A stretch of 49,079 bases of DNA from Oscillospiraceae bacterium (GTDB lineage Bacteria > Bacillota > Clostridia > Oscillospirales > Oscillospiraceae). Under the pieces are notes generated by a model. The model made no database searches and had not been told where the DNA came from. It saw only the letters and a list, made by a program, of their open reading frames with translations. This document shows, piece after piece, positions 5,495 through 48,923 of this stretch. The translations under genes were made by a program, and so were the position numbers. Location: NCBI GenBank assembly GCA_017409205.1, contig JAFQTF010000025.1:1-49079 (forward strand), given 5' to 3'. Each line of letters starts with the position of its first letter. Position 1 is the stretch's first letter.

Positions 5495-6403
5495 TTACAG
5501 CATCACCATCAGCAGCGTCACGATGATGACGATAGAGATCACGATGGCCACGGAATTGATGGCACTGGACAGACCCACATCCTCCTTCAGTTCAGCGGTA
5601 AATACAGGAATGGCAGAGCCAATGGGGCTGAAGGCCAGAATCACCAGTGTCTGCCGCACCTCCAGATCAAAGGGCAGCAGGAAATAATAGCAGGCTGCCA
5701 GAATGGCGGCAATGCCGAACCGGACGGACAGGATCCGCACCATGGCGCCGAGCTTGCTTCTGTCGCCGGACAGCTTGAAACCCACGCCGATCATCAGCAT
5801 GGCAAGGAAGGCATTGGCATTGCCCAAAATCTCCGCAAAGGAAACGATCGCCTTCGGCGGCGTCAGGCTGTTCAGATTCAGGAACACCATCACCACATGG
5901 GTCAGAAAGGGGATGGAGGTCAGGGGAGCTTTCAGCATACGCTTTACATCCACCCTGCCGCCCTCCTTCACCGCCCGGCAGACACCGAAGGAGCCGCCCA
6001 GGCACACGAAGGAATTGCCCACATCAAAGAGGCTGGTGGTCAGCACGCCCACAGGGCCCAGAAAACTCTGGGTAAAGGGCAGTGCAAAGGTGCCGATGTT
6101 ATAGCCCGGCAGATTCAGCATATCGAAGGCCATTTCCGCCCGGGAATGTTTCTGCCGCAGAAGCCAGCCTGCGGTCATATAGATCACGCCGCCTCCAAGA
6201 CCCAGCAGCGCCAGCGTCAGCATGGAAGCATCGATGGGTTTTCCGGCTGAGGAGGCCAGAATGGCCGCCGGGAGGGTGATTTTGATCACGACCTTCGACA
6301 GAACACCGAAGGTTTCCGGCCCGAAAAAGCCGGTGCGGCGCAGAACATAGCCAAGGATGATGATGGCCACGAAGCAGCCCGCACGGATGAGAATATCCAG
6401 CAT
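5495..6403 (-). CDS. AEC family (auxin efflux carrier-type) transporter
   Basis: The 302-residue membrane protein has about ten hydrophobic segments in two halves, starting LIRAGCFVAIIILGYVLRR, with an LNLPGYNIGTFALPF crossover segment in the first half and FSPIGSAIPVFT in the second. This is the fold of AEC permeases such as malate and auxin-type exporters. It probably exports an organic anion; substrate unknown. It is last in the string GNAT-rlmD-DMP19-lipoprotein-AEC, 15 bp after the lipoprotein gene, and ends at a terminator. Confidence 0.85.
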   Translation of the reverse strand: MLDILIRAGCFVAIIILGYVLRRTGFFGPETFGVLSKVVIKITLPAAILASSAGKPIDASMLTLALLGLGGGVIYMTAGWLLRQKHSRAEMAFDMLNLPGYNIGTFALPFTQSFLGPVGVLTTSLFDVGNSFVCLGGSFGVCRAVKEGGRVDVKRMLKAPLTSIPFLTHVVMVFLNLNSLTPPKAIVSFAEILGNANAFLAMLMIGVGFKLSGDRSKLGAMVRILSVRFGIAAILAACYYFLLPFDLEVRQTLVILAFSPIGSAIPVFTAELKEDVGLSSAINSVAIVISIVIIVTLLMVML

Positions 6404-6418
6404 AGTCCCCCTCCGAAA

Positions 6419-7153
6419 TTACGCGACAGGATAAAACAGCTCCAGCAGGCTCCAGGTATTGTCCTCCACAAAGCTTGCCAGCGTCAGGGTCACTCTGTAG
6501 CGGCCCAGATCATAGTCAAAGATCTGCAGGGTGTAATAGGGTACGCCCTGCATGACAGAGGACATGTGCAGCGCAGAACGTTCCTGGCCCAGGAAGGTCA
6601 CGGTGACCGGTTCCAGAGTCCCCACTTCGATGCCGGCCTGGGCATAGGCTGCCACCAGCTGATCCTTCTGCTGCAGGGTAGCCTCCAGGATCTCGCTGTC
6701 ATCCAGCATGGCCATGGCGATCCGCTCCTGCATGGTCTGCTTCTGGTACAGCACATTCATGGTCACCATAATATCGGCATTTTCCGCCATCATATCGGTG
6801 AACTGCTCCATGCCTTCCATGCTGTCACCAATTTCAGTTCCTTCCAGAATCTCCTGAACGTTGCCGGGCAGCTCCTGCAGTTCCTCTGCACTGTAGAATG
6901 TCCAGCTGCTGTCCAGATCGCAGGCGTAGCCGGTATATTCGTTGATGTAGGTGCCGCCATCCATGCGACCCATGCTGACGGGATCTTCGGCTTCCGGAAG
7001 CGCCGTTTCCTCCGCTGCTACGGTGCCGGTAACAGGGGCAACCGTTTCCACGGAATCATTCTTCAGGGTGCCCGTAACGGACTGCTCCAGTGCGTCGCCG
7101 CAGCCTGCCAGCAGCAGGGACATCACCAGCAGCAATGCAAGCATCTTTTTCAT
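6419..7153 (-). CDS. Secreted lipoprotein of unknown function
   Basis: The 244-residue protein starts MKKMLALLLVMSLLLAGC, a lipoprotein signal with the lipid-modified Cys at 18. The mature part has an acidic linker (residues ~25-75), then a domain containing EYTGYACDLDSSWTFYS and an aromatic C-terminal strand-rich region (SALHMSSVMQGVPYYTLQ). The layout resembles small membrane-anchored sensor-like proteins of Clostridia, but I do not recognise a named family. Start at 7153 chosen for the signal peptide and the GAGG upstream. It lies 108 bp after the DMP19-like gene and 15 bp before the transporter. Confidence 0.75.
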   Translation of the reverse strand: MKKMLALLLVMSLLLAGCGDALEQSVTGTLKNDSVETVAPVTGTVAAEETALPEAEDPVSMGRMDGGTYINEYTGYACDLDSSWTFYSAEELQELPGNVQEILEGTEIGDSMEGMEQFTDMMAENADIMVTMNVLYQKQTMQERIAMAMLDDSEILEATLQQKDQLVAAYAQAGIEVGTLEPVTVTFLGQERSALHMSSVMQGVPYYTLQIFDYDLGRYRVTLTLASFVEDNTWSLLELFYPVA

Positions 7154-7261
7154 TCGCAATACCTCATTTCTGTTTATTGTACCGCCTCCGGCGGTTTCTC
7201 TCATTTCCCGGCCTTGCCTCATGGTGCGTATCTCCCCGTTGCCGGGTTTCCATGGGGGCAA

Positions 7262-7660
7262 TCACAGCTGCATGGTCCGGGCGTAATCTTCCAGCAGTTC
7301 CATAAGCAACCGCTCATGGACATAGAAAAAATCGTCACATTCTTCAAACAGCGCATCATTTTCATCGTCACAGATGTCTTCCTGCCCGGAAAAGGCTTCG
7401 TAGCAACGCTGCAGATTGCTGCGCAGCGGCTCCGGCAGCACTGACAGCAGCACCTGCGTCTCGGCCTTCAGGTCACCGCAGTTGGCAGTATTGAAAAAAT
7501 ACTGGCTGTGGCCCCCATTATTGACCTCTGCCTCATAATTCATCAGCTGCGCATAGGGTGCTGCCGCCTGCCCCTCCGCCCAAAGCTGCCACATCCGGTT
7601 CCATTTTTCTTCCGCTTCTGTCAGTTTCTTCTTTTGGGCAAAGAAATCAAAGATACCCAT
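7262..7660 (-). CDS. DMP19-like (DUF4375) domain protein
   Basis: The 132-residue cytoplasmic protein has MNYEAEVNNGGHSQYFFN around residues 40-57, the E-x-N-G-G-x-x-Q-[YF]-F signature of the DMP19/DUF4375 family. In Neisseria DMP19 is described as a DNA mimic; whether clostridial members do this is unknown. The C-terminal part is very acidic (EDICDDENDALFEECDDFF), in keeping with that idea. The start lies 1 nt after the rlmD stop, so the two are co-translated. Confidence 0.7.
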   Translation of the reverse strand: MGIFDFFAQKKKLTEAEEKWNRMWQLWAEGQAAAPYAQLMNYEAEVNNGGHSQYFFNTANCGDLKAETQVLLSVLPEPLRSNLQRCYEAFSGQEDICDDENDALFEECDDFFYVHERLLMELLEDYARTMQL

Positions 7661-7661
7661 A

Positions 7662-9014
7662 TCAGCACTCCCTCACCAGCGTAACCACGCTCTCCACATG
7701 GGAGCATCTGGGGAAGAGGTCTGCGGCCATGGCGTTTTTCAGGCTGTAGCCACGCGCCTTCAGGAGAGCCACGTCTCTTGCCAGGGTAGCCGGATCACAG
7801 GAGACATAGACGATCCGCCGGGGACTCATACGGTGCAGGGCCTCGATGGTATCGGCATTCAGGCCCTTTCTGGGCGGATCCACCACCACCACATCAGGGT
7901 GTACGCCGTTCTTTTCCAGTTCCAGGGCGGCCTGACCTGCATCACCGCAGAAAAATTCTGCGTTTTCAATGCCATTGCGTCTGGCATTGTCCCTGGCATC
8001 CGCAACCGCCTGGGGAATAACTTCAACACCGATGACCTTTCCGGCAGCACCTGCCATGGCAAGAGTGATGGTGCCCACGCCGCAATACAGGTCGAGAACC
8101 AGGTCTTCCTTTGTAATCTCTGCCTGCGAAATGGCTGCCTGATACAGCCGTTGGGCCTGATGGTGGTTCACCTGATAGAAGGACCGGGGACTTAACCGGA
8201 AGGTAAGACCGCAGAGGGTATCCTCGATATAGCCGGGGCCATGGAGGGTGATAAATTTATCTCCCAGAACAGCATTGCCTTTTTTGGTGTTGACAGACAG
8301 CACCAGGGTGGTAAATCCGGGGATCCGCTCCAGCCGCTTCAGCAGTTCCTCCACCCTGGGCAGCTTGTCGCCGTTGCATACCAGGCACACCAGCACCTGA
8401 CCGGAAACAACACCCCGGCGAACATAGATGTGCCGCAAAAGGCCCTTGTGGGCAACTTCGTCATATACTGTCACGCGGTATTGGTTTACATAATCCATCA
8501 CCGCATCCTTGACGGCATCTGTCTCTTCCGGCAGGATCAGGCATCGTTTGTTTTCCACCACATCATGGGTGCCTGCCCGGAAGAAGCCGGCATAGGCCCG
8601 GCCCTTTTTCTGGGACACGGGGTACTGCGCCTTGTTCCGGTAGCCATGGCAGGTAGGGGCCGACAAAATGGGTATTTCCGTGAGGGCTTCACCCCCCAGA
8701 CGGTTCAGGCAGTTTCTCACCCGCTCCGCCTTCAGCCGGGTCTCCTCGGCATAGTCCATGTGCCAGAAATCACAGCCGCCGCAGAGCTTTGCCACAGGAC
8801 ACTCCCGGTTGCAGCGGTGGGGAGACCGTTCCAGGATCTCCACGATTTTGCCGGCAGCCCAGGTTTTCTGGGCCTTTTCAATACGGACCGTGACACGTTC
8901 CCCGGCGATGGCATTGGGAATGAACACGGCGCAGCCCTCGATATGGGCAACACCCTGTCCCTCGGAGGTGTAGTCCGTGATGACGGTTTCATAGATCTGA
9001 TTTTTGATCAGCAT
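7662..9014 (-). CDS. rlmD: 23S rRNA (uracil-C5)-methyltransferase, RlmD/RumA family
   Basis: The 450-residue protein has an N-terminal TRAM domain (residues 1-62), four iron-sulfur cysteines at 68, 72, 78 and 81 in CNREC...LCGGC, then a SAM-dependent methyltransferase domain with LDLYCGVGTITLAMA, DPPRKG and VSCDPATLARD carrying the catalytic Cys. It adds a methyl group to C5 of a uracil in 23S rRNA. Clostridial paralogues of this family differ in target position, so the exact base is not certain. It overlaps the upstream GNAT gene by 7 nt. Confidence 0.88.
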   Translation of the reverse strand: MLIKNQIYETVITDYTSEGQGVAHIEGCAVFIPNAIAGERVTVRIEKAQKTWAAGKIVEILERSPHRCNRECPVAKLCGGCDFWHMDYAEETRLKAERVRNCLNRLGGEALTEIPILSAPTCHGYRNKAQYPVSQKKGRAYAGFFRAGTHDVVENKRCLILPEETDAVKDAVMDYVNQYRVTVYDEVAHKGLLRHIYVRRGVVSGQVLVCLVCNGDKLPRVEELLKRLERIPGFTTLVLSVNTKKGNAVLGDKFITLHGPGYIEDTLCGLTFRLSPRSFYQVNHHQAQRLYQAAISQAEITKEDLVLDLYCGVGTITLAMAGAAGKVIGVEVIPQAVADARDNARRNGIENAEFFCGDAGQAALELEKNGVHPDVVVVDPPRKGLNADTIEALHRMSPRRIVYVSCDPATLARDVALLKARGYSLKNAMAADLFPRCSHVESVVTLVREC

Positions 9015-11980: not shown

Positions 11981-13726
11981 TTACTTCAGGCTGTACTTGG
12001 CGGCGTAGTCCTTGTACTGCTGGGCGAAGTTCTCGTTCTCCACACGGGCAGAACGGAGGGCTTCGTGCATATTCATGTTGTTATGGGCCATATCCACGAC
12101 ACAGCCGGCGATATTGGAGCAGTGGTCGCCGATACGTTCCAGGGCAGTCAGCAGATCGGACCAGACGAAACCGGTCTCGATGGAGCAGGTGCCCTGCTGC
12201 AGCCGCAGGATGTGGTGGATGCGGAGCTTCTCCTTCAGGTCGTCAATGACCTGTTCCAGAGGCTCCACCCGGAATGCCATTTCCAGATCGTTGTTCCGGA
12301 AGGCGGTGAAGGACAGGCTGATGATCTCGTCAACGGCCTTGATGAGGATCCGCAGCTCATGCCATGCGGCACTGGAGAAGGCGAATCCCTTTTCCTGCAG
12401 TTCTTCAGCAGATTCCAGAATATTCAGGGAGTGGTCGCCGATGCGCTCGAAGTCGTTCAGCGCTTTCAGCAGAACAGCTGCCTCGGCGCTGTCCTGTGCG
12501 CTGATCTTCAGACCGCTGAGCTTCACCAGATAGCTGCCCAGCATATCCTCGTAGTGGTCGGTGCGATCCTCACCATCCCGGACAGCCTGAGCCAGCTCCG
12601 GAGTCAGCTCACCAAAGGCAGAGGCGCTGTCCCGGAATACCTTCCGGGCGCAGTCGGCCATTTCGCCGGTGAGGACACGGCAGCGTTCCAGCGCCACGGG
12701 AGGCGTGGTCAGCAGACGCTCGTCCAGCTCGGAAACAGCCTCGGGCTGCTTGGCGTCGGGTACCAGCCGGCATACCAGCTTTTCCAGCAGATTGCCGGAG
12801 GGCAGCAGCAGTGCGGTGCAGAGAATATTGAACACGGTGTGGCAGATGGAGATGCCCAGATGGGTAGCACCCTCTCCCAGGATAGCAGGAGAGAACAGGG
12901 CACTGACTGCCAGGAACAGAATCAGGCCAATCAGAGTACCAATGATATTGAACATCAGGTGAACATAGGCAGCCCGCTTTGCGTTCTTGGTAGCGCCCAC
13001 AGAGGACAGCATGGCGGTAACGCAGGTACCGATATTCTGACCCATGATGATGGGGATAGCCGCGGCATAGCTGACGGCGCCGGTGGCAGACAGAGCCTGC
13101 AGAATACCAACAGAGGCAGAGGAAGACTGAATGACAGCAGTCAGCACAGCGCCGGCAATAACGCCCAGCACAGGATTGGTGAACAGCAGGAACAGGTCGG
13201 TGAACCAGGCCTCATCCCGCAGACCCTTCACCGCGCCGGACATGGTATCCATGCCGAACATCAGCACGGCAAAGCCCAGCAGGATCATGCCGATATCCTT
13301 CTTCTTGCTGTCCTTGATGAACATGTAATACACAATGCCGATCAGAGCCAGGATGGGGGTAAAGGAAGTGGGCTTTAAGAGCTGGATGAAAATGCTGTCA
13401 CCTTCGATGCCGCTCAAGGAAAGCACCCAGGCGGTGACGGTAGTACCCACGTTTGCACCCATAATGACATTGATGGCCTGTCCCAGGGTCAGCAGACTGG
13501 AGTTGACGAAGCCGACCACCATGACCGTGGTGGCAGAGGAGGACTGGATGACGGCAGTCACCGCCATACCGGTGAGGAAGCCCATCATACGGTTGGTGGT
13601 GAGTTTGCCCAGCAGTGTACGCAGGGAATTGCCGGCAGCCCGTTCCAGAGATTCGCCCATTACGTTCATACCGAACAGGAACAGGGAAAGACCGCCAATC
13701 ATGGTTAGAATATCAAATATATCCAT
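11981..13726 (-). CDS. Na/Pi cotransporter family protein with PhoU-like domain
   Basis: The 581-residue protein has an N-terminal membrane half (1-~310) with two repeated QSSSATTVMVVGFVN / QSSSASVGILQAL segments, the hallmark of sodium-dependent phosphate symporters (NptA/YjbB type). The C-terminal ~220 residues are helical and PhoU-like, with the repeated LNDFERIGDHSLNI and LTALERIGDHCSNIA metal-binding motifs. It imports or exports phosphate with Na+. It is a single gene. The 5' end overlaps the read-through tail of the ribbon-helix-helix ORF by 14 nt. Confidence 0.92.
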   Translation of the reverse strand: MDIFDILTMIGGLSLFLFGMNVMGESLERAAGNSLRTLLGKLTTNRMMGFLTGMAVTAVIQSSSATTVMVVGFVNSSLLTLGQAINVIMGANVGTTVTAWVLSLSGIEGDSIFIQLLKPTSFTPILALIGIVYYMFIKDSKKKDIGMILLGFAVLMFGMDTMSGAVKGLRDEAWFTDLFLLFTNPVLGVIAGAVLTAVIQSSSASVGILQALSATGAVSYAAAIPIIMGQNIGTCVTAMLSSVGATKNAKRAAYVHLMFNIIGTLIGLILFLAVSALFSPAILGEGATHLGISICHTVFNILCTALLLPSGNLLEKLVCRLVPDAKQPEAVSELDERLLTTPPVALERCRVLTGEMADCARKVFRDSASAFGELTPELAQAVRDGEDRTDHYEDMLGSYLVKLSGLKISAQDSAEAAVLLKALNDFERIGDHSLNILESAEELQEKGFAFSSAAWHELRILIKAVDEIISLSFTAFRNNDLEMAFRVEPLEQVIDDLKEKLRIHHILRLQQGTCSIETGFVWSDLLTALERIGDHCSNIAGCVVDMAHNNMNMHEALRSARVENENFAQQYKDYAAKYSLK

Positions 13727-43426: not shown

Positions 43427-43678
43427 TCAGAAATTGGCAACCTCAGAAGACTTCAGCTGAAGCTGCAATTTGTCTGCGATAAGCGCGATAAATTCGGAAT
43501 TCGTGGGTTTTCCCTTGGTGTTGCTCACAGTATAGCCAAAGAACCTTTGCAAGGTATCCAGATCCCCTCTGTCCCAGGCTACTTCGATGGCGTGTCGGAT
43601 GGCCCGCTCTACTCTGGACGGCGTGGTCTGGAATGTTTTCGCCACCTGGGGGTACAATACTTTGGTGATGGCGTTCAC
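43427..43678 (-). CDS. Spo0A C-terminal DNA-binding domain only (truncated Spo0A-like)
   Basis: The 83 residues match the second part of the Spo0A effector domain: [51 protein letters not shown] and IADKL. The receiver domain and the first helices of the effector domain are absent. The only usable start is a GTG with poor ribosome binding site; the frame stays open ~120 nt further upstream without a start codon and with unrelated sequence. This looks like a gene cut at its 5' end at the boundary with the AT-rich island. A natural short Spo0A_C protein is the alternative. Confidence 0.75.
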
Positions 43679-44168: not shown

Positions 44169-44194
44169 CTTTACAGAATACCAGTCATTCGAAT

Positions 44195-44225
44195 ATGACC
44201 GATTTTTCAGGAAGTATTATATAAT
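44195..44225 (+). promoter_or_regulatory. Promoter of paralog A, with leader hairpin
   Basis: ATGACC, 19-nt spacer, TATAAT, the same layout as the three following copies. The leader begins GGCACAAAGAGAGAGG and forms GAGG/CCTC (44241-44244 with 44254-44257). Confidence 0.65.
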
Positions 44226-44357
44226 AAAGGCACAAAGAGAGAGGAACACAACACCTCAGAAAACAACAACTCTTTAGTAAGAATCTAACCCAAATCAAAC
44301 AAAAACCAATCCAAAAGTAAGAACTTATTAACATCTTTTTATCAGGAGGAAAACAAA

Positions 44358-44690
44358 ATGAAGGTCAAGTTTAGTGAGAGATCTATTGAGGTAACAAAGA
44401 CTTTTGCAGTAAAGGCTTCCCACTTTGGTTCTGAGGAATACAATCTGCTGCGAACTGCGATGCAGGATTTGCCTGACTTTAAGTTAGTAATCAAGGCTGC
44501 CCCAAAGCGTCGCCAGCCTTACACGAAGGGTTTGACTTACGAATATATGTATTCCTATATTTCCGATGTCAATAAAGATGATTCTCTTATGAAAGAATAT
44601 ATGAAGCTGCGTGAGTATGGCTGCAATTACGGACAGATCCGAAAGTGGTTCTTAACGAGGTTCCCTGAGTTCAATAACTTCGCTGCTTAA
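44358..44690 (+). CDS. Array protein A (unknown family)
   Basis: The 110-residue basic protein is the first of four tandem paralogues. Shared features: FA in the N-terminal helix, EY..L, a P-[DSN]-[FY]-K segment, then YTKGLTYEYMYSYI and a C-terminal RKWFLTRFPEFNNF. This copy lacks the ~12-residue insertion before the WFL motif seen in B and C and ends right after it. No signal peptide or membrane segment. AGGAGGA precedes the ATG. I do not recognise the family. Confidence 0.85.
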   Translation: MKVKFSERSIEVTKTFAVKASHFGSEEYNLLRTAMQDLPDFKLVIKAAPKRRQPYTKGLTYEYMYSYISDVNKDDSLMKEYMKLREYGCNYGQIRKWFLTRFPEFNNFAA

Positions 44691-44710
44691 AGAAAACAAG
44701 TACCACAAAA

Positions 44711-44741
44711 ACGACAGGTTCTCAAAACGAACTGATATAAT
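44711..44741 (+). promoter_or_regulatory. Promoter of paralog B, with leader hairpin
   Basis: ACGACA, 19-nt spacer, TATAAT. The leader ACATAAAGAACAGGGG carries a GGGG/CCCC hairpin (44758-44761 with 44771-44774). Confidence 0.65.
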
Positions 44742-44813
44742 AGAGACATAAAGAACAGGGGAAAACAAAACCCCGAAACAAAAAAGAAAAATAAAATTTT
44801 GGAGGAAATAATT

Positions 44814-45203
44814 ATGTTTATCAATGAGAAGAAGATGGCTATCGAAATGACCAAGAAGTTTGCTGTCGCTGCCCATAAGTTTGGAACCCAGGAGTACAAG
44901 GATCTTCAGGAAGTCCGAAAGGATTACCCTTCTTACAAGGAGGTCATCGTTACCCGCAAAACTACTGCGAAGAAGGACAACTTCAAGGGGTTGACCTATG
45001 AATACATGGAAAAATATATTTCCAGCCATGACGAAGACGGCAAAATCATGGCAGAGTACCAGGATCTGCGTGGTCTGAGCGAACGCGCAAAGGAAGCACT
45101 GGCTGAGCCTTGTTCCTATCTGGAAATGCGAGCCTGGTTTTTGAAGACCTACCCCGCAATTGCTAAGTTCCATGAAGATCGTGAGAAGTTACTGGCAGCC
45201 TGA
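44814..45203 (+). CDS. Array protein B (unknown family)
   Basis: The 129-residue protein is the closest relative of C: both start MFINEKKMAIE and share KKF, GTQEY, DLQEVR, DYP, KGLTY, and an AEPCSY..M/V..WFLK motif. The rest differs by many substitutions, so duplication is not recent. Predicted helical and lysine-rich. GGAGG lies 8 nt upstream of the ATG at 44814. It has its own promoter and leader hairpin. Confidence 0.87.
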   Translation: MFINEKKMAIEMTKKFAVAAHKFGTQEYKDLQEVRKDYPSYKEVIVTRKTTAKKDNFKGLTYEYMEKYISSHDEDGKIMAEYQDLRGLSERAKEALAEPCSYLEMRAWFLKTYPAIAKFHEDREKLLAA

Positions 45204-45220
45204 TAACAGGTGCCAGTAAT

Positions 45221-45251
45221 ACGACAGATAATCTAAGATAGCTGATATAAT
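45221..45251 (+). promoter_or_regulatory. Promoter of paralog C, with leader hairpin
   Basis: ACGACA, 19-nt spacer, TATAAT. The leader CCATAAAGAACAGGGG forms GGGG-ACAA-CCCC (45268-45279). Confidence 0.65.
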
Positions 45252-45311
45252 GAAGCCATAAAGAACAGGGGACAACCCCACAAACAAAATATAAATTTGG
45301 AGGAAATAATT

Positions 45312-45707
45312 ATGTTTATCAATGAGAAGAAGATGGCGATTGAGGTTTCTAAGAAGTTTTATGCCGCTGCTAGCAAGTATGGTACCCAGGAATACAGAGA
45401 TCTTCAGGAAGTCCGACGCGACTACCCCAACTTCAAGGTGAGTGTCGTTACTCGTAAGGCAACTACCCAGAAAGACACCTACAAGGGTCTGACCTACTCC
45501 TACATGGAAACCTACATCAAGGCACACGACGATAATAAGAAGTCCATTATGGCTGAGTACGAAATGCTCCGCGGTATCTCTAAAGCGGCAAAGGATGCCC
45601 TGGCAGAGCCTTGCAGCTACAACGAAGTGAAAAACTGGTTCCTGAAGAAGTTTACTGAGATTGCGGATTTCCACAAGATGCGGGAAGAACTTCTTAAGAC
45701 CGCATAA
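45312..45707 (+). CDS. Array protein C (unknown family)
   Basis: The 131-residue paralogue of B shares the first 11 residues and the KGLTYSYMETYIKAH and AEPCSYNEVKNWFLKKF motifs. The leader and ribosome binding site (TTGGAGGAAATAATT) are also almost identical to B, so gene and leader were duplicated together. No known domain. Confidence 0.87.
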   Translation: MFINEKKMAIEVSKKFYAAASKYGTQEYRDLQEVRRDYPNFKVSVVTRKATTQKDTYKGLTYSYMETYIKAHDDNKKSIMAEYEMLRGISKAAKDALAEPCSYNEVKNWFLKKFTEIADFHKMREELLKTA

Positions 45708-45722
45708 ATTAGTGCCAGTAAA

Positions 45723-45753
45723 ATGACTGGTTCCGAGATTTGCAAAGTATAAT
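45723..45753 (+). promoter_or_regulatory. Promoter of paralog D, with leader hairpin
   Basis: ATGACT, 19-nt spacer, TATAAT. The leader ACATAAAGAACAGG carries a CAGG/CCTG hairpin (45768-45771 with 45777-45780). Confidence 0.65.
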
Positions 45754-45802
45754 TAAGACATAAAGAACAGGCCACACCTGATAAAAATTGGAGGAAAATA
45801 AA

Positions 45803-46303
45803 ATGATGAATCCCAAGAGCGCCATTAAGGTAAAGTACGCTGAGCAGCTGATCGAAATGAACACCACCTTTGCTAAGATGATTGAAAACCCCATGTCCGA
45901 TGAATACGCACTGCTCCAGAAGCTGAAGATGGAGAATCCCGGCTTCAAGGTTTGCAACCGCAAGATTAAGAGCAACCCTAACAAGGATACCTACAAGGGT
46001 CTGACCTATGCTTACATGAGAAGCTACATCATCACTCACGAAACCGAAGCAACCCGTGTAAATGTTCTGCATGACTTTGACGAACTGATCCTGATTTCTC
46101 AGTGCCACGGCAAGCGGCTGCGCTATCCCACTATCAAGAAGTGGTTCCTGGCTAAGTACCCTGAAGTCGCAAAGTTTGGTGTAGATACTGCCGAACAGGA
46201 AGAGAACAAGGAAGATGCATCCAAGAGCCAGAATGTGGTTCCTTTCTCCGCACCAAAGACTGTAGAAGAAAACGCTTCTGTCGAGCTTGACGAGGTTGTC
46301 TAA
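45803..46303 (+). CDS. Array protein D (unknown family, extended tail)
   Basis: The 166-residue member keeps the family core (DEYALLQKL, NPGFKV, YKGLTYAYMRSYIITHE, IKKWFLAKYPEVAKF) and adds a ~40-residue acidic, low-complexity C-terminal tail. It is the most divergent copy; the ATG at 45803 is used with GGAGGAAAAT upstream. A 46-codon gene follows 1 nt after its stop, so D is first of a short operon with the winged-helix gene. Confidence 0.85.
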   Translation: MMNPKSAIKVKYAEQLIEMNTTFAKMIENPMSDEYALLQKLKMENPGFKVCNRKIKSNPNKDTYKGLTYAYMRSYIITHETEATRVNVLHDFDELILISQCHGKRLRYPTIKKWFLAKYPEVAKFGVDTAEQEENKEDASKSQNVVPFSAPKTVEENASVELDEVV

Positions 46304-46304
46304 G

Positions 46305-46445
46305 ATGTTTACCGTAGCTGAGATGGAAATTATGTGCGATGAAATCTTGATGGCTGGGCATGGACTGACGGCTCAGGAACTCCATGCCCTACCTGAGAAA
46401 GAGATCATCAAACTGTACACCGCTTGCGATAGAAAGGACGAATGA
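46305..46445 (+). CDS. Small protein of 46 residues
   Basis: This short frame begins 1 nt after the stop of array protein D and overlaps the next gene by 4 nt (ATGA), so it is part of a coupled set. The sequence (MFTVAEMEIMCDEILMAG, then LTAQELHALPEKEI) is acidic and helical. No family recognised. The tight spacing on both sides is the main evidence that it is a gene. Confidence 0.6.
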   Translation: MFTVAEMEIMCDEILMAGHGLTAQELHALPEKEIIKLYTACDRKDE

Positions 46446-46789
46446 AGATGGCTGCCACTGTGCCGAACCAGAAAGTGGTTCATGTGAATCGGGATATGCC
46501 CGAAAAGAATGAAGGGAATTTTCTCCTTATCAAGAAAGAGAATCTGTATGCTGCATACAGAGATCTTAACGCCACCGCACTTTGCTTGTACCTGTACCTT
46601 GCCGGAAATATGAACGGATTCAATCTGGCATTCTCTCCAAAAGCAATCCATAATGAGATGGGTATGCCGGAATCCACTTGTCGGGATCAGTTCAATGTTT
46701 TGGCAAAGAAAGGGTATCTTGTACCCAAGCATGAGAAAAGTAATATATACGATTTCTATGAGATACCAAAAGAGAAAGAAAAGGCGTAA
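46442..46789 (+). CDS. Winged helix-turn-helix protein, replication-initiator/plasmid type
   Basis: The 115-residue protein has a winged-helix pattern: NFLLIKKENLYAAYRDL then LNATALCLYLYLAG, LAFSPKAIHNEMGMPESTC and FNVLAKKGYLVPK. The order (start strand, ALxLYLYL helix, recognition helix, KKGYL wing) is that of helix-turn-helix proteins in integrative elements and replication initiators of Firmicutes. It is expected to bind DNA; its role here, replication or regulation, is unknown. It overlaps the 46-codon gene. Confidence 0.75.
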   Translation: MKMAATVPNQKVVHVNRDMPEKNEGNFLLIKKENLYAAYRDLNATALCLYLYLAGNMNGFNLAFSPKAIHNEMGMPESTCRDQFNVLAKKGYLVPKHEKSNIYDFYEIPKEKEKA

Positions 46790-47050: not shown

Positions 47051-47076
47051 TTATTTCAGACGAAGGAGAAACGAAA

Positions 47077-47298
47077 ATGACTTTAGTTGATTATTATGAC
47101 AGACAGATTCCAGAATACTATCCAACTATGTACATGGATGGCTATACGCCAGAACAAATCCTCCATGCGGTTCACCGCAAAATGGTTCGTGAATACTTGG
47201 AGCGGGAAGCAGAGAAGGAAGCTGAAAGAAAAATTGAAAAACAGGTCAAAAAACAGATTGATTCAGCAATGAAGGATCTGTTTAAGGACTGGAAATAA
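47077..47298 (+). CDS. Small charged protein with coiled-coil tail
   Basis: The 73-residue protein starts MTLVDYYDRQIPEYYPTMY, continues with a YTPEQILHAVHRKMVREYL helix and a C-terminal heptad-like K/E-rich helix (EREAEKEAERKIEKQVKKQ). AAGGAG lies 9 nt upstream of the ATG. A longer in-frame start at 46885 would overlap the leader hairpins and is less likely. Such proteins occur in integrative elements; function unknown. Confidence 0.7.
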   Translation: MTLVDYYDRQIPEYYPTMYMDGYTPEQILHAVHRKMVREYLEREAEKEAERKIEKQVKKQIDSAMKDLFKDWK

Positions 47299-48555: not shown

Positions 48556-48762
48556 TCATTCCTTAACATATTCCAAAAGGTCTGCGGGCTGACAATCCAG
48601 AAGCTCACAAATCTTAGAAATATTCTGCAAAGAGATGTACTTATTCTCCCGCAAAGACTGGATCACACCCTCAGACAGAAGCTTTTCTTTTCTCAGTCTG
48701 TTGGTATTATAGCCAGCTTCTTTTAGTGCGGCGAGAATGTCAATCTTATAGACAACAGGCAT
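48556..48762 (-). CDS. Cro/CI-type helix-turn-helix repressor
   Basis: The 68-residue protein has the compact Cro/CI pattern: YKIDILAALKEAGYNTNRLR, EKLLSEGVIQSLRENKYI, SLQNISKICELLDCQPADLLEY. The last part is the standard end of small XRE-type regulators. The start at 48762 has GGGAGGAACC upstream; a longer frame lacks support. It faces three operator-like palindromes and a divergent promoter, so it is probably an autoregulated repressor of the element, as in phage or conjugative-element switches. Confidence 0.85.
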   Translation of the reverse strand: MPVVYKIDILAALKEAGYNTNRLRKEKLLSEGVIQSLRENKYISLQNISKICELLDCQPADLLEYVKE

Positions 48763-48817
48763 TGTGGTTCCTCCCTTCCTGGGGCTGCTAAAAAAGTGCC
48801 CCTTCTCCATTGTCCGT

Positions 48818-48846
48818 ATTATAGCATAAGATTACACAGAAATCAA
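48818..48846 (-). promoter_or_regulatory. Promoter of the Cro/CI-type gene
   Basis: On the minus strand TTGATT (48841-48846) and TATAAT (48818-48823), 17-nt spacer. The first operator overlaps the spacer and -35 box. Confidence 0.75.
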
Positions 48847-48923
48847 TGTAAAATATAAACATAATATTACACAGATATTTGTGTAATCTGCGAATTGAAA
48901 TTACACAGAAAACAGTGTATAAT
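48831..48923. promoter_or_regulatory. Three operator-like palindromes between divergent promoters
   Basis: O1 48831-48854, O2 48866-48887 and O3 48900-48923 all begin ATTACACAGA and close with a TGT-containing arm; O2 is ATTACACAGAT-ATTTGTGTAAT, 10 of 11 matching. O1 covers the -35 of the leftward promoter and O3 the spacer and -10 of the rightward one. The layout is that of a phage or ICE switch bound by the Cro/CI-type protein. Confidence 0.8.
48895..48923 (+). promoter_or_regulatory. Rightward promoter at the island switch
   Basis: TTGAAA (48895-48900) and TATAAT (48918-48923) with a 17-nt spacer, inside operator O3. Transcription would start near 48930, at the first base of the structured RNA candidate. 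Confidence 0.75.

Follow-up and report, generated by a model that had tools for sequence, protein, structure and literature searches.

Integrative mobilizable elements of the Firmicutes are small and carry replication-type genes, and phage satellites, such as the phage-inducible chromosomal islands (PICI) and others, combine a similar size with an integrase and a repressor. Here we analyze an array of four small genes in a stretch of DNA of 49,079 bp from an Oscillospiraceae bacterium (assembly GCA_017409205.1, contig JAFQTF010000025.1, positions 1 to 49,079), which we call the window, together with the integrative elements to which this array would belong. We name them AB elements, after the two types of gene, A and B, found in the array. 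The window is an entire contig (C8) of an assembly of 1.76 Mb that is 76.6% complete. AB elements are like integrative mobilizable elements in their small size, their integration and their replication-type genes; no relaxase appeared among 25 of the 28 Pfam families matched by 58 of 172 candidate open reading frames (ORFs). From PICI-type satellites they would differ in that no packaging or capsid-interference gene was present among the PHROG and Pfam families listed (at most 25 per library) for 58 element proteins.

Gene-restoring islands have been outlined under the Islander principle, by which the restored target gene and a displaced fragment mark the two ends, and by which tRNA genes and the 3' ends of protein genes serve as targets (PMC4383910). 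Islands of this type, as outlined in that source, share with AB elements the tyrosine integrase, the restored target and the displaced fragment; AB elements, in contrast, are defined by a new AB pair together with a WYL regulator, and spo0A is among their targets. The GInt islands (PMC5385486) contain an operon of three integrases and a small protein. They are similar to AB elements in having a conserved operon at one end, variable cargo and flanking repeats, whereas the AB layouts L037, L046, L095 and L099 present one integrase each. Sporulation genes are also described as integration sites: skin is found in sigK, SPbeta in spsM, gin in gerE and yin in yabG. AB elements resemble the skin type in using a sporulation gene, but the gene is spo0A and, in the relative L037, spo0A is full-length while the element is integrated; therefore, excision is not needed to rebuild the gene.

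Gene-transfer agents in the same bacterial families package fragments of 4.6-8.9 kb, according to PMC12946183; a link between AB elements and such agents is speculation. A survey of gut mobile elements reports that the C-terminal domain of Spo0A is enriched in Firmicutes elements (PMC6907783), and displaced spo0A ends could explain part of this enrichment without spo0A being cargo. A search of the literature by titles and abstract openings gave nothing on spo0A as an attachment site or on the AB element family, which is seemingly an undescribed family of small mobile elements of gut bacteria.

The AB pair and its integrative element

Our proposal is that AB probably fulfils a core function in an integrative element, and that this element inserted into spo0A. 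The array would be the hallmark AB operon of tyrosine-integrase elements of 7-11 kb present in gut Clostridia, and the copy of the window would have integrated into the 3' part of spo0A, replacing the 3' end of its target. What had been four orphan genes would then be the signature of a recognisable mobile-element family in gut Clostridia, which can be mined by means of the AB pair.

The proposal is based on the relatives of the array in other genomes. Direct repeats were found around the array in 17 of 53 loci (three duplicate pairs among them), which represent 15 distinct elements with the repeats spaced 6,977-11,268 bp apart; we did not accept as ends the weaker repeat pairs of L051 (16 bp), L083 (17 bp) and L084 (30 bp and at the edge of the locus). 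In addition to genes of the AB family, every one of the 15 delimited elements contains a tyrosine integrase and a WYL-domain gene. Other frequent genes encode a RecE-C-terminal-like protein (11 elements), a serine resolvase (10) and a Cro-type protein (10), and the cargo is variable, with Type III restriction, Fic, trypsin-like, TM2, S-layer and HNH families among the 58 of 172 candidate ORFs that were scanned. Among the 24 arrays flanked by 7 kb or more downstream and 3 kb or more upstream, WYL and integrase genes are both present in 19, and among the well-flanked arrays of at least two genes in 18 of 20. The layout is gene-restoring in the 15 distinct relatives, with the restored target at one end and the displaced fragment at the other; the window contains the displaced fragment only. 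In L037, L046, L095 and L099 the AB genes lie at the opposite end from the integrase.

The targets are diverse. Seven of the 15 elements occupy tRNA genes, for which ARAGORN calls Val, Val, Leu, Thr, Cys and Pro; in L092 it calls no gene, and this element was counted as having a tRNA target by its repeat, nearly identical to that of L047 (Thr). Four elements (L067, L085, L088 and L095) share one type of locus, presumably, from its sequence, a rubrerythrin/rubredoxin locus, and the target shared by L069 and L073 is the 3' end of an unnamed gene. The target of L049 is what we take to be a GAPDH-like gene, and L037 is integrated in spo0A. As a separate observation, an excisionase-like ORF and an integrase adjoin the AB element of L046 at the same tRNA (5918-8782), with a neighbouring ORF of 455 amino acids (aa) that is presumably relaxase-like; it looks as if two elements were stacked there.

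The position that follows the B gene contains an ORF of 119-239 aa in 14 of the 15 delimited elements, L047 being the exception. It is as if replication-type genes were swapped in this slot while AB stays. The helix-turn-helix (HTH)-like label given to the slot gene comes from weak matches and varies between types, so that it is a putative one. Across the 15 elements, the ORFs in the slot are of unrelated-looking types with similar size.

Organization and distribution of the family

The array is formed by four genes on the + strand, with products of 110, 129, 131 and 166 aa in the ORF list of the window. Copy 1 (44358..44690, 110 aa) is a divergent member of the A lineage; copy 2 (44814..45203, 129 aa) and copy 3 (45312..45707, 131 aa) belong to the same lineage and are sisters, 65% identical; copy 4 (45803..46303, 166 aa), of the B lineage, has a long C-terminal tail. 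A preliminary description, made from the sequence of the window alone, had recognized four tandem paralogues with shared motifs, and the ORFs are as it gave them: their alignment has 25 invariant columns, KGLTY and WFL among them. It had also placed them in an AT-rich island, which agrees with a GC content that falls from 0.50-0.62 in the first 43 kb to 0.48 between 43 and 44 kb and to 0.38-0.44 beyond, the array being located at the AT-rich end of the contig.

The collected loci contain 116 family ORFs, giving 55 distinct arrays. The survey of copy number in other genomes that the preliminary description had called for shows that it varies, with 43 pairs, 4 triples, 1 quadruple (that of the window) and 7 singles; one of the triples (L099) is a pair with its A gene split into two ORFs. 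Neither a known housekeeping domain nor copies that are single and unordered elsewhere, the two outcomes named in advance as telling against the idea, was encountered.

In the tree of the family, 38 of the 47 first genes fall in one branch of 46 rows, together with one last gene, and the opposite side holds 46 of the 47 last genes and nine first genes. The label changes on the tree were 10 and 4, compared with means of 34.6 and 34.5 after shuffling, and in each case none of 500 shuffles gave a value as low. Since the arrays are mostly pairs and the first and last genes stand apart in the tree, the basic unit of the family is a pair with A before B. The second subgroup, as the tree indicates, has a first/last split of its own. 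In the window, copies 1-3 are of the first type and copy 4 is of the last type, in the order A, A, A, B, and by their placement these are two separate old lineages. The array of the window would have derived from one A-B pair by extra copies of A, each with its own promoter. The earlier idea of old paralogues that have stayed adjacent is supported, with the corrections that copies 2 and 3 are sisters and that two old lineages are involved; the four copies would not represent as many independent specificities.

No model in Pfam, PHROG or NCBIfam convincingly matched the four copies, and the family stays undescribed, as first thought, in the libraries searched. The similarity within the array is not due to chance, because a profile of the four copies detects homologues in other genomes (top match E=8.3e-52). 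With this profile, 15 of the 200 genomes searched in the host's family, the host's own genome counted, gave relatives, and the genus-mates G049, G135 and G195 gave none; in the host assembly the only family matches are the four copies of the array. When a richer profile was used, five of the 391 genomes searched in the class and one of the 398 searched in the phylum had matches, with the own genome counted in both, and the four additional genomes gave two family matches apiece. Viral contigs (three alignments) and phage and plasmid records (one query protein) yielded no relative. A scan of named genomes yielded 38 loci, of which 37 are titled as metagenome-assembled genome (MAG) or uncultured and one comes from a strain, Oscillibacter valericigenes An860. 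Judging from identical proteins, this strain would carry two complete AB elements, L092 at a tRNA and L037 in spo0A, as well as a remnant, L038.

Integration in spo0A

A displaced 3' part of spo0A, coding for the DNA-binding domain, is located on the - strand of the window at 43427..43678 (Spo0A_C, E=2.3e-31; TIGR02875 positions 185-261), and its product is 91.6% identical over 83 aa to the Spo0A of a genus-mate. The DNA homology to the spo0A genes of relatives stops sharply at 43675, a position that we take as the putative left edge of the element. One end of the element would lie in the window, and the contig stops before the other. In this way spo0A, which encodes the master regulator of sporulation, is used for integration, and its 3' end is replaced by the element.

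The complete arrangement is seen in L037, from Oscillibacter, where the integrase adjoins a full-length spo0A and the AB operon separates this gene from a displaced 3' copy of it, at a distance of 9,223 bp; the two repeat copies are identical in 129 of 131 bp, with 122 bp exact. Integration leaves a full-length spo0A in this one complete relative. The locus L116, from a genus-mate, is collinear and has no insertion, and its stretch 2506-2634 can be aligned with each of the two repeat copies (one case). Between the window at 47.4-48.9 kb and L037 there are five short DNA matches in the same order. A spo0A remnant is also present in L089 (Anaerotignum), with its edge three codons further in than that of the window, and the edge in L037 is about 26 codons further in, which means that at least two places in spo0A have been used. 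These three remnants come from 59 sequences, a set that includes duplicates and three sequences without an array.

Upstream of the arrays of L070, L076 and L081 there is a full but divergent spo0A, and in L081 an ORF of the integrase cluster is located between this gene and the array. The host genome contains a second protein with a Spo0A C-terminal domain, of 164 aa and encoded on contig C6, which is distinct from the displaced fragment. This Spo0A-like ORF (G000:C6:1122-1571; L052, L060) was considered as the missing half of spo0A and was rejected, since it covers the same C-terminal domain.

Predicted promoters and leaders of the AB genes

Each copy of the array appears to have a separate promoter and leader, as had been proposed, with a TATAAT box and a small predicted hairpin in all four. 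Reading along the + strand, the promoter and leader of copy 1 (44184..44257) present a degenerate motif at 44184-44203 with a score below 10.5, TATAAT at 44220-44225 and a stem at 44241-44244/44254-44257 (hairpin z -4.44). For copy 2 (44700..44774) the motif is at 44700-44719 (score 13.5), TATAAT at 44736-44741 and the stem at 44758-44761/44771-44774 (z -2.85); for copy 3 (45210..45279) they are at 45210-45229 (score 11.4), 45246-45251 and 45268-45271/45276-45279 (z -1.66). The region of copy 4 (45712..45780) has the motif at 45712-45731 (score 17.9), TATAAT at 45748-45753 and a stem at 45768-45771/45777-45780 whose hairpin is weak (z -1.08). These z values of the window were obtained against dinucleotide shuffles. 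The spacing from motif to TATAAT, read from the sequence, is identical in the four copies; the scores of copies 2 and 3 lie in the range where chance matches also occur, and at a score of 14 copy 4 is the only clear one of the window.

In the relatives, 36 of 56 aligned promoters have GTACCATTAAAACGACTGGT in common, its ACGAC placed 20 nt ahead of TATAAT, as well as a start region that is conserved, this set having been chosen for ACGAC variants at the expected place and including some members that score below 0 against the matrix. The fairer figure is that of a leave-one-locus-out scan, in which related loci are still inside: at a score of 14, family genes were preceded by 31 sites, distributed over 26 of the 50 loci, and eight sites were elsewhere; five of these eight are accompanied by a -10-like box, at 0.4-0.8 kb upstream of an array. 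In a single dinucleotide shuffle of the 804 kb, three motif sites were found. The motif is an operator-like one.

After 58 distinct leaders had been filtered to 47, a hairpin of -2 kcal/mol or better was found near the start in 45 of them, with a mean z of -2.9 against mononucleotide shuffles, and the sequences of the stems vary between leaders yet pair. In the second subgroup (L038, L042, L043, L045-L048, L051 and L090), another palindrome, recognized by eye, replaces the common motif directly before TATAAT. In many of these loci, also by eye, the ribosome site is directly preceded by an extra hairpin whose loop is of the CAAGA type.

Proposed role of the A and B proteins

The A and B proteins are basic, with a median isoelectric point of 9.25 for the products of first genes and 9.05 for those of last genes (47 each). 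An AlphaFold model of A (predicted local distance difference test 86, predicted template modelling score 0.54) presents a beta-beta-alpha-alpha-beta part and a helical part; a fold search with this model gave no convincing match and no DNA-binding fold. The use of codons ending in C is higher in AB genes than in the WYL and integrase genes of the same element in 14 of 15 elements (p=3e-4). The ratio of nonsynonymous to synonymous substitution rates (dN/dS) was 0.025-0.425 in 8 of 11 gene pairs and was not computable in three, including copies 2/3 of the window; AB genes are under purifying selection where it is measurable (8/8 computable pairs).

In our proposal, A and B would be basic proteins that bind nucleic acids and are produced in abundance under a regulated promoter and, with the HTH-like protein encoded downstream, they would serve the maintenance of the element itself, either in the replication of the excised circle or in excision. 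A nucleic-acid-binding maintenance function, its molecular role being a predicted one, is most likely for AB rather than that of variable defence cargo. That AB serves specifically in the replication or maintenance of the element we put forward tentatively. The two proteins form a family that no Pfam model covers.

Several points weigh against the reading of AB as the core of an element integrated in spo0A. The window has no integrase, WYL gene or intact spo0A of its own up to the contig end at 49079; in the host genome, a WYL search gave only a match 28% identical, on contig C16, and a Spo0A search gave no match above the cut-off. The repeat pair was not found in 36 of 53 loci, many of them truncated at contig ends. 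Six of the 24 well-flanked arrays are exceptional, L066 and L087 lacking the WYL gene or the integrase; the singles L038, L040 and L051, which look like remnants, have neither, and the single L070 has both. In the tree, whose root is a midpoint and whose bootstrap is unsettled, 9 of 47 first genes and one last gene fall on the side of the other type. In the copies of the window itself the codon bias is weak, as are two of the four hairpins. Furthermore, binding, replication and excision are predicted roles of AB.

Other explanations were considered for the same data. The A and B proteins could be the transcription regulators of the element, which would bind a site at their own promoters and have no direct part in replication or excision. 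The conserved 20-nt motif, its fixed spacing to TATAAT and its near restriction to AB promoters speak for such autoregulation, as do the basic character of both proteins and the fact that the second subgroup pairs a different palindrome at the same place with diverged AB proteins. However, Pfam gives no HTH match for A or B, the model of A has no DNA-binding fold match, the WYL, Cro-type and HTH-like genes of the element could bind the site instead, and the strong leaders and adapted codons suggest a protein output beyond what a repressor needs; we regard autoregulation as rather unlikely. Excision factors, either directionality or accessory factors for the integrase, would explain the presence of AB alongside an integrase in 15/15 delimited elements, and the layout of L037 shows no other recognised excisionase-like gene. 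However, the integrases differ and their target sites are unrelated, yet AB stays one family, and directionality factors usually follow their integrase; moreover, in the four layouts mentioned above (L037, L046, L095 and L099) AB is far from the integrase end. For these reasons we judge an excision factor unlikely.

The size of the elements, their integrase and their Cro-type repressor, as well as the phage RecE-C-terminal-like protein in 11/15 of them, would suit a phage satellite in which AB encodes packaging-interference or structural proteins. This would be improbable given that no capsid, terminase or portal is among the families listed (at most 25 per library) for the 58 element proteins, and that no relative of the family was found in viral contigs (three alignment scans) or in phage records (one query protein). 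The preliminary description had favoured diversified specificity, such as for target recognition, immunity or anti-defence, and there are indeed divergent paralogues in variable copy number, in elements with varied cargo that in one case includes Type III restriction genes. Nevertheless, the usual unit is one A and one B in fixed order, and AB is present in 15/15 elements while other genes vary. All eight computable pairs of the 11 have dN/dS below 0.43, a sign of purifying selection, the proteins are basic, and the PADLOC matches are scattered: 13 models matched, none of them in more than 3 of 98 members (lowest E=4.4e-4), with no consistent defence family. A defence, immunity or anti-defence cassette is thus very improbable. 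Coming back to the maintenance function that we prefer, a bolder version would make AB elements a new class without conjugation or capsid of their own, in which A and B, an abundant pair with a new fold, bind or compact the DNA of the excised element so that it can be replicated and passively transferred, for example in gene-transfer-agent particles, the repeated use of spo0A tying the element to the sporulation decision; we see this as a long shot.

Other features of the window

Downstream of the array, a small ORF of 46 aa (46305..46445, + strand) lies in the slot between the B gene and the HTH-like gene; some relatives have there an ORF of 67-85 aa, and both would occupy the same slot. It is followed on the + strand by an HTH-like, replication-initiator-like gene of 115 aa (46442..46789; phrog_270, E=1.7e-5), for which HTH_36 and DnaD_N are below the cut-off in Pfam. 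A small charged protein encoded at 47062..47298 (+) recurs in related elements, with a cluster in 14 loci. Its presence in all elements was considered and rejected, as a motif search found it or its kind in 6 of the 15 delimited elements, in addition to the window. A Cro/C1-type regulator (HTH_26, E=1.2e-13), with a cluster in 10 of the 15 delimited elements, is encoded on the - strand at 48556..48810. Three copies of a TTACACAG-type repeat adjoin this gene at 48825..48920, and part of them recurs in L037 at 12930-12984; they are a possible candidate operator. Finally, L042 contains at 6143-6369, outside the element, a T-box-like leader that falls short of the gathering score (E=2.7e-13).

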